From NCBI GenBank assembly GCA_003214215.1, contig QCLX01000014.1:1-35913 (forward strand): a stretch of DNA of 35,913 bases, given 5' to 3'. Below are positions 5,284-21,333 of this stretch, in pieces. Source of the stretch: Prochlorococcus sp. AG-418-G18 (lineage in GTDB: Bacteria > Cyanobacteriota > Cyanobacteriia > PCC-6307 > Cyanobiaceae). The notes under the pieces are model-generated. The model was not told the DNA's origin, made no database searches, and saw only the letters and a program-made list of their open reading frames with translations. The translations under genes and the position numbers were made by a program. Within the stretch, counting starts at the first letter, position 1; the number at the start of each line of letters is the position of its first letter.

Positions 5284-6267
5284 TTGGCATATAAAAACTT
5301 ATTAATCACAGGTGCGAATGGATGTGTTGGCCAATATTTAGTTGATTGGTTTTTAAAAAACACAAAATTCAGGCTTTGTCTCATGGTGAGAGACAAAAGT
5401 AAGTTGCCAATTTCTGTTCAAGAAAATAAAAATGTCAAGTTAATGGTGTGTGATATCAGGGAATCATATAAGTATAAAAAGGAAATTAGTCAAATTAATT
5501 ACCTAATACATACTGCTACAGCTTGGGGAGATCCAAGAAGAGCCTATGAAGTAAACATTAAAGCTTTTGAAGAATTACTTGCAATGCTTGATATTAACAA
5601 GTTAGAAAAGATTATTTATTTTTCAACCGCTAGCATTCTTGATACCCAAACAGAATTAATGAGGGAATCATTGATTTATGGAACAGAGTACATTCAAACA
5701 AAATACGAATGTTTCCAGAGACTTAGAGAAAGCTCATTTGCAGAAAAAACTTTCGCTGTTTTCCCTACCTTGGTTTTTGGAGGAAATCTTGGAAAAAAAA
5801 GTAAATATCCTGTAAGTTATTTAACTAGTGGATTGAAAGAAATCGGAAAATGGCTTTGGGTAGCAAGATTTTTAAAACTCGATTCTAAATTTCACTTTAT
5901 ACACGCAAATGATATCGCTCAAATTTGTGGGTTTCTAATTAAAAATCATAAAGAAGAGAAATACAAAGGTTTTAGAAAATTTGTCCTAGGTCAGAAATTT
6001 ATTTCAATTGATCATGCCATTATTACACTTTTAAAAAGAAACAATATGAGGAGATATTTTGCTATACCCCTTACAAAAAAAATTCTAAAAATATTATTAA
6101 GAATTCTTCCCATCCAAACTACTCCGTGGGATAGCTTCAGTATCAAGAAATATGACTTTAATCATGTCCCCATCACTAATCCTGAGACTTTCAAACTTAA
6201 AAGTTATGCAAAGTCACTGAATGATATTTTAAGGTTATCAAAATTACCAAGCTGTAATAACAATTAA
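5284..6267 (+). CDS. NAD-dependent epimerase/dehydratase (extended SDR), left copy
   Basis: This 327-residue protein is of the extended short-chain dehydrogenase type. The N-terminal nucleotide-binding motif GANGCVG (glycines 10, 13, 16) and the YIQTK active-site pair Tyr136/Lys140 are visible, with a preceding serine in YFSTAS. Such proteins act on nucleotide sugars, steroids or flavonoid-like substrates; the C-terminal substrate domain gives no specific clue. Translation starts at TTG 5284, which gives the expected MAYKNLLITG start of the Rossmann fold; no upstream ATG is available. It follows hemE by 8 nt. The copy is identical to 29647-30630. Confidence 0.85.
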   Translation: MAYKNLLITGANGCVGQYLVDWFLKNTKFRLCLMVRDKSKLPISVQENKNVKLMVCDIRESYKYKKEISQINYLIHTATAWGDPRRAYEVNIKAFEELLAMLDINKLEKIIYFSTASILDTQTELMRESLIYGTEYIQTKYECFQRLRESSFAEKTFAVFPTLVFGGNLGKKSKYPVSYLTSGLKEIGKWLWVARFLKLDSKFHFIHANDIAQICGFLIKNHKEEKYKGFRKFVLGQKFISIDHAIITLLKRNNMRRYFAIPLTKKILKILLRILPIQTTPWDSFSIKKYDFNHVPITNPETFKLKSYAKSLNDILRLSKLPSCNNN

Positions 6268-18286: not shown

Positions 18287-19336
18287 TTGAAGACATTAAC
18301 CATATTAAAACCAGATGATTGGCATTTACATTTAAGAGAGGGTCTTGTATTAAAAAATATCATACATTTTACATCAGAATATTTCGGGAGAGCTATCATC
18401 ATGCCAAATACTAAAAATCCTATAACATCTATTGATGGTGCTAACAGCTATAAGAAATCAATTTCTGAAGCGTTACCAGAAAGTTCTAAGTTTGAACCAT
18501 TAATGACAATGTATCTTACTGATGAGACTGATAAAGAAGAACTAATAAATGGTTTCAAAAATGGTGTCTTTTTCGCGGCAAAATTATATCCTGCTAATGC
18601 CACAACTAATTCAACTCATGGAGTTAAGAAAATAGAAAATCTATATAAGATCTTTGAATCAATGCAAGATTCTGGGATACCTCTTTTGATTCATGGAGAA
18701 GTGACAGATTCTGAAATAGATGTATTTGATCGAGAGGAAGTTTTTATAGACAGAGAACTTTCTAAAATAGTTAAAAGATTTCCAAAGTTAAAAATTGTTT
18801 TAGAACATATAACTACTTCCTATGCGGTGGATTTTGTTCAAGAAAATAATATTGGGGCTACTATCACGCCCCATCATTTGCACATAAATAGAAATGCAAT
18901 GTTTTTTGGAGGTTTAAATAGCGATTTCTATTGCTTACCAGTCGCTAAGAGGGAAAAAAATAGATTGGCTTTAAGGAAAGCTGCAACAAGCGGGAAAGAA
19001 TGTTTTTTCTTGGGAACTGACTCTGCTCCTCATCTTAGAAAGTGGAAAGCTTTTTGCGGTTGTGCGGGTATTTTTAATTCGCCAGTTGCAATAGAAAGCT
19101 ATATAACTGTTTTTGAAGAGGAAAATGCTTTAGATAATTTTGAGAAGTTTGCAAGTTTGAATGGCCCTAATTTTTATAATGTTCCTCCAAATAAACAAAA
19201 ATTAAAATTAGTTTCTAGTCCTAATAAAGTCGCTGAATTTATTGATGTTGTTGAAGAAAAAAATATTGTCGGACAAATAAAACCATTTCATGCTGGTGAA
19301 ACTTTAAAATGGCAAGTTGAAGGGATATTAAATTAA
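18287..19336 (+). CDS. pyrC: dihydroorotase, class II
   Basis: PyrC cyclises N-carbamoyl-aspartate to dihydroorotate in pyrimidine synthesis. The 349-residue length fits the E. coli-type enzyme. Binuclear zinc site residues are visible: His13 and His15 in DWHLHLRE with substrate-binding Arg17, the carboxylated Lys99 in AAKLYPANATTNS, His136 (LIHGEV), His174 (LEHITT) and catalytic Asp245 in LGTDSAPH. Start TTG 18287 gives the proper N terminus MKTLTILKPDDWH. Its end lies next to the decayed tRNA-Leu copy at 19359-19479, so the downstream border is where a putative element inserted. Confidence 0.96.
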   Translation: MKTLTILKPDDWHLHLREGLVLKNIIHFTSEYFGRAIIMPNTKNPITSIDGANSYKKSISEALPESSKFEPLMTMYLTDETDKEELINGFKNGVFFAAKLYPANATTNSTHGVKKIENLYKIFESMQDSGIPLLIHGEVTDSEIDVFDREEVFIDRELSKIVKRFPKLKIVLEHITTSYAVDFVQENNIGATITPHHLHINRNAMFFGGLNSDFYCLPVAKREKNRLALRKAATSGKECFFLGTDSAPHLRKWKAFCGCAGIFNSPVAIESYITVFEEENALDNFEKFASLNGPNFYNVPPNKQKLKLVSSPNKVAEFIDVVEEKNIVGQIKPFHAGETLKWQVEGILN

Positions 19337-19358: not shown

Positions 19359-19479
19359 TTCAATAAAAGTGTAAATATTCCAATTTTTCTTGGTTAAATG
19401 GGAGACTTTCAGCTACGACAAAAAAGCGCAAATTCTTTTTGGGAGTATGGCGGAATTCGTAGATGCGCAAGACTTAAAA
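19359..19479 (+). repeat. decayed direct copy of the tRNA-Leu upstream region and 5' half
   Basis: This 121-bp stretch aligns without gaps to 20854-20974, with 107 identical bases by my hand count (14 mismatches). It covers about 80 bp of upstream sequence plus the first 39 bases of the tRNA. The match ends in the anticodon loop CTTAAAA; from 19480 the sequences are unrelated. Mismatches in the tRNA part show decay of this copy, since the right copy still folds as a complete tRNA. Confidence 0.93.
19441..19479 (+). pseudogene. 5' half of tRNA-Leu(UAA), truncated in the anticodon loop
   Basis: The 39 bases correspond to the acceptor 5' strand, D arm and 5' side of the anticodon arm of the intact gene at 20936-21021. 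Changes include G to A in the acceptor (GGGAGTA), C for G in the D-loop Gly-Gly position, and CAAGA for CCGGA in the anticodon stem. No 3' half follows, so it cannot make a tRNA. It marks one boundary of the putative element. Confidence 0.88.
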
Positions 19480-19627
19480 AATAACCAAAATATAAATACA
19501 CTAGCTTAAAGCACATATAGAGATTAGGTTGAAACCTTTCGTATTACTTAATTTATGACCTATCCACTTAAGGACAAACATCCAACTTATATCTAGCGCG
19601 AATTAAATGTCAAAATAAAAGAATCTA

Positions 19628-20749
19628 TTATTCTGAAATTGATTTTGATAACTTATATTTGCCCTCCTGGAATTTAAACGCAATATTTTCTATTTTTTCT
19701 AATCGAGCAAGAAGCTTTTTATTTTGAGCAATTATCTCATTATTTTTAGTTTCTAATTGAGTGTTTTTAGATATTATGTTCTCGTTCTCATTTTTTAATT
19801 TTTCATTATCATTTTCAAGTTGAGATAATTTTAGATCTATTTCTACTTTCTGATTCATGCTGATTTGAGTTGGATTATTTGCCCTGCCTAATTGCCAAAC
19901 AAATCCAGCTCTAGCAGAAAACTTATCTTCAAATTCACCGGCATATTCTTGTCCTGGCATAGTCATAGATGCGGCATAGTTAAATGATAGTTTTTCATTT
20001 ACTTTAGAAGCACATCCTCCTGAAAAGGCGAAATCTCCCCCGTGAGTTCCTGCTCCTAAACCACAAGCTAGATCAGTGTCAGTAGGAACTGTTGGTAATC
20101 CTGTAAGAGCAGCGCTTAATGCTCCGACATTGTTTATTGATTGTTCTACATCTCTTCCATTTATCAATAATTTAGTCCCATTTGTATAGTCTATTGGTAT
20201 TGGATTTCCTGCGTCATCTTTTGCATACACTTTTTGCCTGCTATTTTCTTCTTTAGTAATCCAAGAGTTTTTACCAATATGTAACTCACCATTTGCTTTC
20301 TTACTTATTATGGGATCTCCATCAACAGATAAACCCTCTGAAGTTATGTCGACATCATTAGCATCCCCACCTATCTGAATAGTTCCATCTTCATTTTTTT
20401 TGATAACGTTTTTACCTTCCCAAGGTACAAAATTATTAAGTTGGCCAGTTAATCCGTAAGGTACTTTTGTTATTGTATTTGCGTCAATATCATAAATAGT
20501 ATATCCATCGTTATCACCAGCCATATAAAGTTTTCTATTGTAAGAATCCAGAAAAGATCCTGAAGATGCTACTCCACTAGGTTGATTAAATTCAACTAAA
20601 TCTGTAGCCACATTTGTGGTTTCATTAACGCGTTGAATTTTGTAGTTTTTACTTCCTAAAGTAACTACTCTTATTAGGTCGGCTTTTACTGAATTGCTAC
20701 TTATCAAGAAGCTAGAACCTATTAGAGATAATGCAATGATTTTTTTCAA
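19628..20749 (-). CDS. secreted YadA-anchor-like surface protein with C-terminal coiled coil
   Basis: I choose TTG 20749 (373 residues) because it opens a clear signal peptide, MKKIIALSLIGSS to SVKA, cleaved before DLIRV; the frame stays open to a TTG at 20803 but that would bury the signal. After it come a propeller-like stretch (NRKLYMAGDNDGYTIYDI), repeats with isoleucine/glycine spacing (about 85-150, as in beta-roll or stalk regions), then ALSAALTGLP and a strand-rich segment ending in SARAGFVWQLG that resembles the outer-membrane anchor of trimeric autotransporters. About 75 residues of heptad-like KNENENIISKN coiled coil follow, whereas YadA proteins normally end at the anchor. Function is probably at the cell surface; adhesion is a guess. 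Confidence 0.75.
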   Translation of the reverse strand: MKKIIALSLIGSSFLISSNSVKADLIRVVTLGSKNYKIQRVNETTNVATDLVEFNQPSGVASSGSFLDSYNRKLYMAGDNDGYTIYDIDANTITKVPYGLTGQLNNFVPWEGKNVIKKNEDGTIQIGGDANDVDITSEGLSVDGDPIISKKANGELHIGKNSWITKEENSRQKVYAKDDAGNPIPIDYTNGTKLLINGRDVEQSINNVGALSAALTGLPTVPTDTDLACGLGAGTHGGDFAFSGGCASKVNEKLSFNYAASMTMPGQEYAGEFEDKFSARAGFVWQLGRANNPTQISMNQKVEIDLKLSQLENDNEKLKNENENIISKNTQLETKNNEIIAQNKKLLARLEKIENIAFKFQEGKYKLSKSISE

Positions 20750-20853
20750 TTTTTTTATTATGTTTATTAATTGATTGCTAGCTAAATGACTATAATATTG
20801 CAATAATTTATTAGGAAATTAATAGGAAATAATTAATCTAGCGTGTCTATCTA

Positions 20854-20974
20854 TTCAAGAAAAGAGTAAATATTGGAATATTTTTTGGTTAAATGGGAGA
20901 CTTTCAGCTAAGATAAAAAAGCGCAAATTCCTTTTGGGAGTGTGGCGGAATTGGTAGACGCGCCGGACTTAAAA
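20854..20974 (+). repeat. direct repeat containing the functional tRNA-Leu upstream region and 5' half
   Basis: This is the intact partner of 19359-19479. The best-conserved part is GGTTAAATGGGAGACTTTC, about 45 bases before the tRNA, followed by AAAAAAGCGCAAATTC just ahead of it. Such conservation suggests that the promoter of the tRNA travelled with the 5' half. Confidence 0.93.
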
Positions 20975-21021
20975 TCCGTCGAGCGCTTTAGCTCGTGGGG
21001 GTTCAAGTCCCCCCACTCCCA
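20936..21021 (+). tRNA. tRNA-Leu(UAA)
   Basis: The 86-base gene folds as a class II tRNA: acceptor GGGAGTG with CACTCCC, D arm GCG with CGC around GAATTGGTAGA, anticodon loop CTTAAAA (anticodon TAA, reading UUA), a long variable arm with stem GAGC/GCTC, and T arm GGGGG-TTCAAGT-CCCCC. The discriminator is A, and CCA is not encoded. There is no group I intron, although many cyanobacteria carry one in this gene between anticodon positions 34 and 35. Its 5' half is duplicated upstream. Given the leucine UUA richness of this genome, it is probably heavily used. Confidence 0.97.
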
Positions 21022-21099
21022 TTATTTAATTACTTATCTTAAGTTTTTACGATAACTTCTAAAAATTGTTATGTTTTAACTAATCAACAATAAATCAAT

Positions 21100-21333
21100 A
21101 TGGAAAATATTTTCAGTAATTCATTTGCTACCATAGTTGCCTATGTTGGAGTAATTTCTATCTATTTGTTGGTTGTTCCATTGTTTCTATTTTACTGGAT
21201 GAACAATAGATGGAACGTTATGGGCAAATTTGAAAGATTAGGAATTTATGGACTCGTATTTCTTTTCTTTCCTGGATTAATTTTATTTTCTCCATTTCTA
21301 AATCTCAGATTAAAAGGAAGTGGTAAAGGGTAA
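21100..21333 (+). CDS. ndhL: NAD(P)H-quinone oxidoreductase subunit L (NDH-1)
   Basis: NdhL is a small, cyanobacteria- and plastid-specific membrane subunit of the NDH-1 complex, which works in cyclic electron flow, respiration and CO2 uptake at the thylakoid. The 77-residue protein has two hydrophobic helices (about 10-32 and 47-66) separated by the polar [20 protein letters not shown] segment, and ends in a basic tail. It is followed by a DUF3007 gene 4 nt later and then trpA, a gene order that I recall in other picocyanobacteria, which supports the call. Confidence 0.93.

Follow-up and report, generated by a model that had tools for sequence, protein, structure and literature searches.

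Small gene cassettes with cyanophage-like attachment arms at the tRNA-Leu gene of Prochlorococcus

A repeated tRNA-Leu half and its recurrence between pyrC and ndhL

We observed that the intact tRNA-Leu(UAA) gene of Prochlorococcus sp. AG-418-G18 is preceded by a second, decayed copy of its own promoter and 5′ half, and we asked how this arrangement, and the gene enclosed by the two copies, could have arisen. The window, by which we mean the whole stretch of DNA analysed, spans 35,913 nucleotides (contig QCLX01000014.1 of assembly GCA_003214215.1, positions 1-35,913, forward strand). The locus lies between two conserved plus-strand genes, pyrC on the left (dihydroorotase, 18287-19336, with an Amidohydrolase Pfam match; found in 205 of 266 genomes of the genus) and ndhL on the right (21100-21333, PF10716, E 2e-27; present in 204 of 266). 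ARAGORN placed the intact tRNA gene at 20935-21022 and Rfam at 20936-21021. The direct repeat pairs 19359-19479 with 20854-20974 over 121 nt at 88%, with a spacing of 1495, in agreement with an earlier note on this DNA that had counted 107 of 121 identical positions by hand. Gapped local alignment of the copies scored 174, compared to a maximum of 31 in 30 shuffles, and extended ~26 nt farther upstream than the ungapped match. The latter stops where the note had placed its end, in the anticodon loop, at the loop's final base (20974). The same note had raised the alternative of a promoter motif common to unrelated tRNA genes. This did not hold, as a 161-nt repeat query found two places at E < 0.01 in the incomplete (66%) genome of this strain, both at the tRNA-Leu locus. 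All 10 genomes tested had just one intact tRNA-Leu(UAA) gene.

Between the two repeat copies, the ORFs of the window include no integrase and one long reading frame, as previously described. This cargo gene (19628-20803, minus strand) encodes 391 amino acids with an N-terminus that is signal-peptide-like by eye. The YadA-anchor identity given to it earlier stands less firmly, since the match to PF03895 (E 3.7e-4, 20.9 bits) is under the Pfam cutoff of 22.7; we refer to the protein as YadA-like.

The pyrC-ndhL interval was compared in the 152 of 266 genus genomes with coordinates for both genes among the matches listed, a set in which genomes carrying divergent pyrC or ndhL are under-represented. 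Among these, the gap measures 259-353 bp, with the tRNA alone, in 115 genomes, and 516-3,723 bp in the remaining 37, the window's genome included; genomes filled at the site and found by motif alone are additional to the 37. In all loci fetched for comparison (36 other filled, 24 empty), there is a single intact tRNA-Leu(UAA); inserts, where present, lie upstream of it. A left remnant of the tRNA 5′ half or promoter was detected in 30 of the 37 filled loci, and none above threshold in the other seven. This remnant ends at tRNA position 39-48 (ARAGORN numbering) in 24 of the 30, at 55 in four and at 64 in one, where the gapped alignments run on, and at 25 in L072, which was left out of the junction alignment. 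In L055, the left copy is identical to the right over 114 of 114 nt. The remnants and the common breakpoint support the proposal of site-specific insertion at the anticodon loop made in the earlier note, and the locus comparison supports an element that supplies a new promoter and tRNA 5′ half. Its expectation of empty sites in many strains and different cargo at the same breakpoint in others was borne out, and the empty sites and varied cargo speak against the same gene and half-tRNA being carried by every relative.

Models of the two end classes described below match 32 and 17 of the 266 genomes. With three weak matches to model R1 that lack a tRNA-Leu half (L229-L231) dropped, and three genomes matched by both models, the end motif is present at tRNA-Leu in 43 of 266 genomes, one of which (G171) holds the phage itself. 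The 40 cassettes with both ends measure 250-2,649 bp (median 1,185). The cultured strain MIT 9302 (L135) is among the cassette carriers. Tandem arrays occur at L047, L217 and L228 (genomes G023, G322 and G073); the tRNA-distal half is more decayed than the proximal one in two of the three, and all halves are intact in G322. At the level of sequence, the compared loci show that the site has been reused by many unrelated cargos and that tandem arrays exist. The predominance of empty sites, the two att types, the arrays of at least two units and the identical copies in L055 together point to repeated insertions. Separately, pyrC and ndhL occur twice and inverted on a single contig of one genome (L232, G192:C22), which is probably an amplification chimera.

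Cassette ends and the attP locus of T7-like cyanophages

Directly beyond the break on its right side, a stretch of ~125 nt is conserved among inserts whose cargos are unrelated; it falls into two broad classes, A/B and C/D. By BLAST, the 5′ half and left arm match P-SSP7 at 83.4% over 168 nt (E 6e-41), at a position between int and the T7-like RNA polymerase gene. In the window, the left remnant (19359-19479, plus strand) consists of the original tRNA-Leu promoter and its decayed 5′ half, cut past the anticodon loop. It adjoins the left end of the cassette, a T7-like cyanophage attP arm (19480-19605, plus strand): BLAST against fetched phage contigs marked 19439-19607 as phage-like, the arm is homologous to the one matched in P-SSP7 up to 6018, and the R1 model, built with the window sequence included, matches 19477-19604 at 87.9 bits. 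The right end, also on the plus strand, comprises a phage arm-type site, TCTAGCGTGTCTAT (20837-20850, two mismatches to P-SSP7 5764-5777), a host-type tRNA-Leu promoter (20854-20935) resembling that of empty sites, and a tRNA-Leu 5′ half (20936-20974) identical to 39 nt of P-SSP7 (5860-5898). Promoter and half appear to be supplied by the cassette, and the original 3′ half follows at 20975-21021 (plus strand; ARAGORN, Rfam). The class C end pattern was found exactly in nine IMG/VR contigs, and the other two of the three end patterns had no IMG/VR match. P-SSP7, P-SSP3 and eight of the nine contigs share an identical 39-nt att core; the ninth contig is cut before it.

Class C/D cassettes have phage sequence as the tRNA promoter at their right, and the left ends of L039 and L044, both of this class, reach the first codons of the phage RNA polymerase gene. 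It is in itself unusual for a single-copy tRNA gene to be driven, as appears to be the case here, by a promoter of phage origin. Class A/B cassettes, including that of the window, carry a host-type tRNA promoter at the right; none of the 57 phage loci with the exact core has such a promoter. The arm site, which was picked after its resemblance to P-SSP7 had been noticed, is present with at most 4 mismatches in 23 of 31 host-promoter inserts vs 0 of 24 empty sites (p 5e-9), and in 2 of 1,100 shuffles. The right end is of phage type in 15/15 C/D cassettes and a host promoter in 23/24 A/B cassettes. Left and right classes agree in 38 of the 39 cassettes counted (of 40, the first cassette of L047 being left out as ambiguous); the exception, cassette 1 of L217, combines an A/B left arm with a phage-type right end. 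These comparisons show that both cassette ends resemble the attP locus of T7-like cyanophages, in the window that of the P-SSP7 group, and this match makes the phage Int the recombinase that fits.

Phage-like stretches in the 48 filled loci examined are ends or internal att copies, with the exception of one 70-nt stretch in L072; the interiors are unlike the phage contigs fetched, most of which span little more than the region around int. In a tree of the arms, those of cassettes and phages interleave, far from forming one clade (19 changes, compared to a shuffled mean of 28.9 and minimum of 23), and the nearest neighbour is another cassette for 25 of 39 cassette arms. The interleaving suggests that arms were exchanged or re-derived repeatedly. 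A hairpin predicted in the left end, weak for A1 and clearer for A2, may be a terminator. The left end had also been considered as an RNA element, a candidate set aside once the phage attP match was found; Rfam on 10 loci gave no curated family at the left end and a tRNA for the intact gene only, with weak sub-threshold matches, some tRNA-like, across the left junction of L061 and L066. We likewise rejected a group I intron, as there was no Rfam match and an intact tRNA follows.

At one site, a phage itself is joined to the host sequence. In G171, pyrC, the 39-nt core and the arm are followed by colinear P-SSP7-like phage that continues until the contig stops (83% by blastn over 6.2 kb, from the part of P-SSP7 compared). 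That the junction falls exactly at att speaks against a random chimera. The earlier note had predicted larger versions with a tyrosine recombinase; the joined phage fits the first half of this prediction, and the contig of this incomplete genome ends before any int gene. At the host-phage junction (G171:C40; L233, L234), pyrC is split into two ORFs. In IMG/VR, 79 loci have a relative of the phage int, 75 of them with both int and RNA polymerase. The interval between these two genes is 252-363 bp in all 75 and contains a cassette in none, and no phage-cassette composite was found among them. No excised cassette circle was seen in this sequence analysis.

Cargo genes and their exchange between lineages

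The insert cargos are unrelated to each other, and many are of membrane or envelope types, among them YadA-like, PspC, TPR, OMP beta-barrel, MORN, rhomboid, PDZ, TM2, DUF805 and DUF3721 proteins. Pfam at E 0.01 returned no family for 10 of 20 further cargo proteins. No integrase was read among the insert ORFs or detected by Pfam among 21 cargo proteins, and PADLOC gave no match for 10 proteins. Cargo families recur across distant strains and with both end types. YadA-like cargo related to that of the window is also present in cassettes L071, L046, L049 and L217, and relatives of the gene were found elsewhere in its own genome and in 18 more of the 89 searched. At 11 of 18 such loci (L100, L101, L103, L107 and L109-L115), the relative lies within the same 10-kb stretch as a tmRNA gene.

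In a search of 50,697 phage records, seven of eight cargo proteins were without relatives in cyanophages: the YadA-like, TPR, PspC, L048, L217 and L055 proteins matched none of the records, and the OMP cargo had one weak Salmonella phage match. An IMG/VR pattern search likewise found no relative of the YadA-like or PspC cargo. A cassette gene in L227 (1144-1791, minus strand) encodes a 2OG-Fe(II) oxygenase with a PHROG match; it matched 140 of the 50,697 records, and its best matches include cyanophage proteins with 41-42% identity.

We compared fourfold sites in cargo and core genes. Between L044 and L073, the TPR cargo shows differences at 9 of 80 sites vs 21 of 46 in pyrC and ndhL fragments (p 2e-5), and between the window and L071, the YadA-like cargo at 18 of 140 vs 19 of 59 in the core flanks (p 0.002); three PspC pairs, with 26 fourfold sites each, show the same tendency. 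On these sequence grounds, cargo is shown to have crossed between lineages. Conversely, L046, L049 and L071 have flanks that are 96-98% alike and inserts that are 77-80% alike. In the TPR and YadA pairs, the left arm is 75-82% alike compared to about 92-99% for the cargo core. Since the arms are less alike than the cargo, these cargos may have been exchanged by recombination within cassettes already in place, rather than moved as whole units. Arms and cargo would thus have been reshuffled, or arms would decay fast after integration.

A model of insertion, rival explanations and related systems

We consider it probable that these inserts are integrase-less cassettes bounded by cyanophage att arms, which T7-like cyanophage integrases inserted in trans. 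In the window, 19480-20974 would be such a cassette of 1,495 bp. As a circle, it would carry a cyanophage-type attP composed of the arm site, the promoter, the 39-nt tRNA-Leu 5′ half, whose end lies in the anticodon loop, and the second arm. The Int of an infecting T7-like cyanophage would join this circle to the only tRNA-Leu(UAA) gene, at its anticodon loop, leaving the old promoter and 5′ half behind as a decaying stub on the left while the cassette brings new ones. Because promoter and 5′ half are renewed, the tRNA would stay whole and the next cassette could insert on the tRNA side. Between cells, cassettes would travel alongside infecting phages, whether as separate circles or in a phage-cassette composite formed by accretion. 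The same integrases acting in trans on att-arm cassettes, as with CIMEs and conjugative elements, is the most economical reading, and the data suggest that a viral integrase may help bacteria to trade surface-protein genes. More tentatively, and at less than an even chance, lytic T7-like cyanophages may, through their integrase and attP, provide Prochlorococcus with a natural gene-cassette system. Here, infection would insert or move envelope-protein cassettes at tRNA-Leu, the newest unit of an array would adjoin the tRNA with the promoter renewed each time, and survivors of infection would gain surface traits.

Several observations would also be expected from decayed prophages, that is, repeated T7-like integrations followed by near-total deletion and later chance pickup of host genes: a phage is present at the site in G171, the right ends of class C/D are phage sequence, some C/D left ends (L039, L044) extend as far as the opening codons of the phage RNA polymerase gene, cassette arms interleave with phage arms, and one cargo, the 2OG oxygenase, has cyanophage relatives. 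We nevertheless regard this origin as unlikely. The interiors are unlike the compared phage contigs (mainly the int region), seven of eight cargo proteins are without a cyanophage relative in the 50,697 phage records, and the same cargo families occur in distant strains and with both end types. In addition, A/B cassettes share a captured host promoter that is absent from 57/57 phage loci with the exact core.

A single old insertion, after which pyrC-ndhL alleles were swapped by homologous exchange through the flanking core genes, appears highly improbable in view of the empty majority (115/152 among the genomes listed), the two att types, the arrays and the 114/114 identical copies in L055. 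Moreover, flanks were not co-transferred in the pairs tested, although cargo similarity does peak inside the cassette and drop in the arms. That the tRNA-Leu gene was duplicated in tandem and one copy then decayed can be given almost no credence: this accounts for two copies in direct orientation, but the duplicate usually breaks off close to the anticodon loop, with sequence resembling phage attP beyond it, and the tRNA-side copy in class C/D inserts has a phage promoter. For the inserts taken together, the phage-like ends tell against such a duplication.

According to the available part of Shitrit et al. (PMC8776855), P-SSP7 and S-TIP37 integrate at tRNA-Leu and need int and attP for this; integration is transient, lysogens were not found, and its benefit 'remains uncertain'. 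The cassettes share with the attP/int system described there (PMC8776855) the tRNA-Leu target, the 39-nt first-half core and similar arms, but are without int and, as far as tested, have almost no phage genes; they sit in stored genomes, whereas the phage integration is reported as transient and without lysogens. As in an integrated T7-like phage, attP arms and the 39-nt core are found at the junctions; phage genes inside were found only in G171, the interiors of the 48 loci being unlike phage contigs (mainly the int region).

CIMEs are usually several kilobases or more in size, compared to 0.25-2.6 kb for the cassettes, which, unlike CIMEs, replace the tRNA 5′ half and promoter. In the available parts of the work on CIMEs and accretion (PMC5704250) and on Dehalococcoides ssrA islands (PMC3146451), the described elements are similarly att-bounded, have no recombinase of their own, form tandem arrays at an RNA gene and should be able to travel together with a related element; CIMEs originate from conjugative or mobilizable elements, whereas the cassettes have lytic-phage att ends. 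As in CIMEs, the cassettes keep both att sites and, by ORF reading and Pfam, are without recombinase or transfer genes; the exchange of cargo between lineages lends indirect support to their possible mobilisation by a related element.

The earlier note had proposed a cousin of the tycheposons, reportedly described by Hackl and colleagues in 2023 as Prochlorococcus elements with a tRNA target and cargo genes. The likeness in shape is real, since host, tRNA target and cargo agree, but the kinship is one of geometry only: the end sequences are not tycheposon-like and match the attP arms of T7-like cyanophages. In the available part of PMC10872708, tycheposons carry their own tyrosine recombinase and measure 4-200 kb, whereas the cassettes, although inserted at a tRNA gene, are without a recombinase and measure 250-2,649 bp. 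Integron cassettes and CALINs, as presented in the available part of PMC11389934, are alike in their fixed site, their arrays of small units and, for CALINs, an integrase in trans; here, in contrast, the target is a tRNA gene rebuilt at each insertion. We found no description of the present cassettes in the titles and abstracts of the literature searched, subscription papers being mostly outside reach.

Cassettes with cyanophage att arms, with 37 of the 152 listed genomes filled, offer a testable answer to the question of what benefit T7-like cyanophage integration brings, and are a possible route of surface-gene exchange. Because the left junction of a cassette looks like a host-att-phage junction, cassettes might also have inflated the metagenomic count of integrated phages, given as 1.6% for attP group I in the available part of PMC8776855.

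A second site was observed at tRNA-Pro(UGG), where remnants of the 5′ half and promoter lie upstream and remnants of the 3′ half downstream (L116:4588-6060, L104:4543-5872, L105:576-1644 and further genomes). In G033, several copies are present. YadA-like cargo lies between the tRNA and the 5′-half remnant in L104 and L116, and other cargo elsewhere. Divergent tyrosine-recombinase-like ORFs of 462 and 407 aa stand beside a tRNA-Pro 5′ half at some loci (L255:2369-3754, minus strand, L256, L259 and L260; L257:2315-3535, minus strand), one protein with a weak Pfam match and another with a weak PHROG match. BLASTP of one pair gave no significant similarity between such a protein and the P-SSP7 Int (best E 0.20). 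We take this site to resemble tycheposons, and its recombinase-like ORFs are possibly the tycheposon recombinase.
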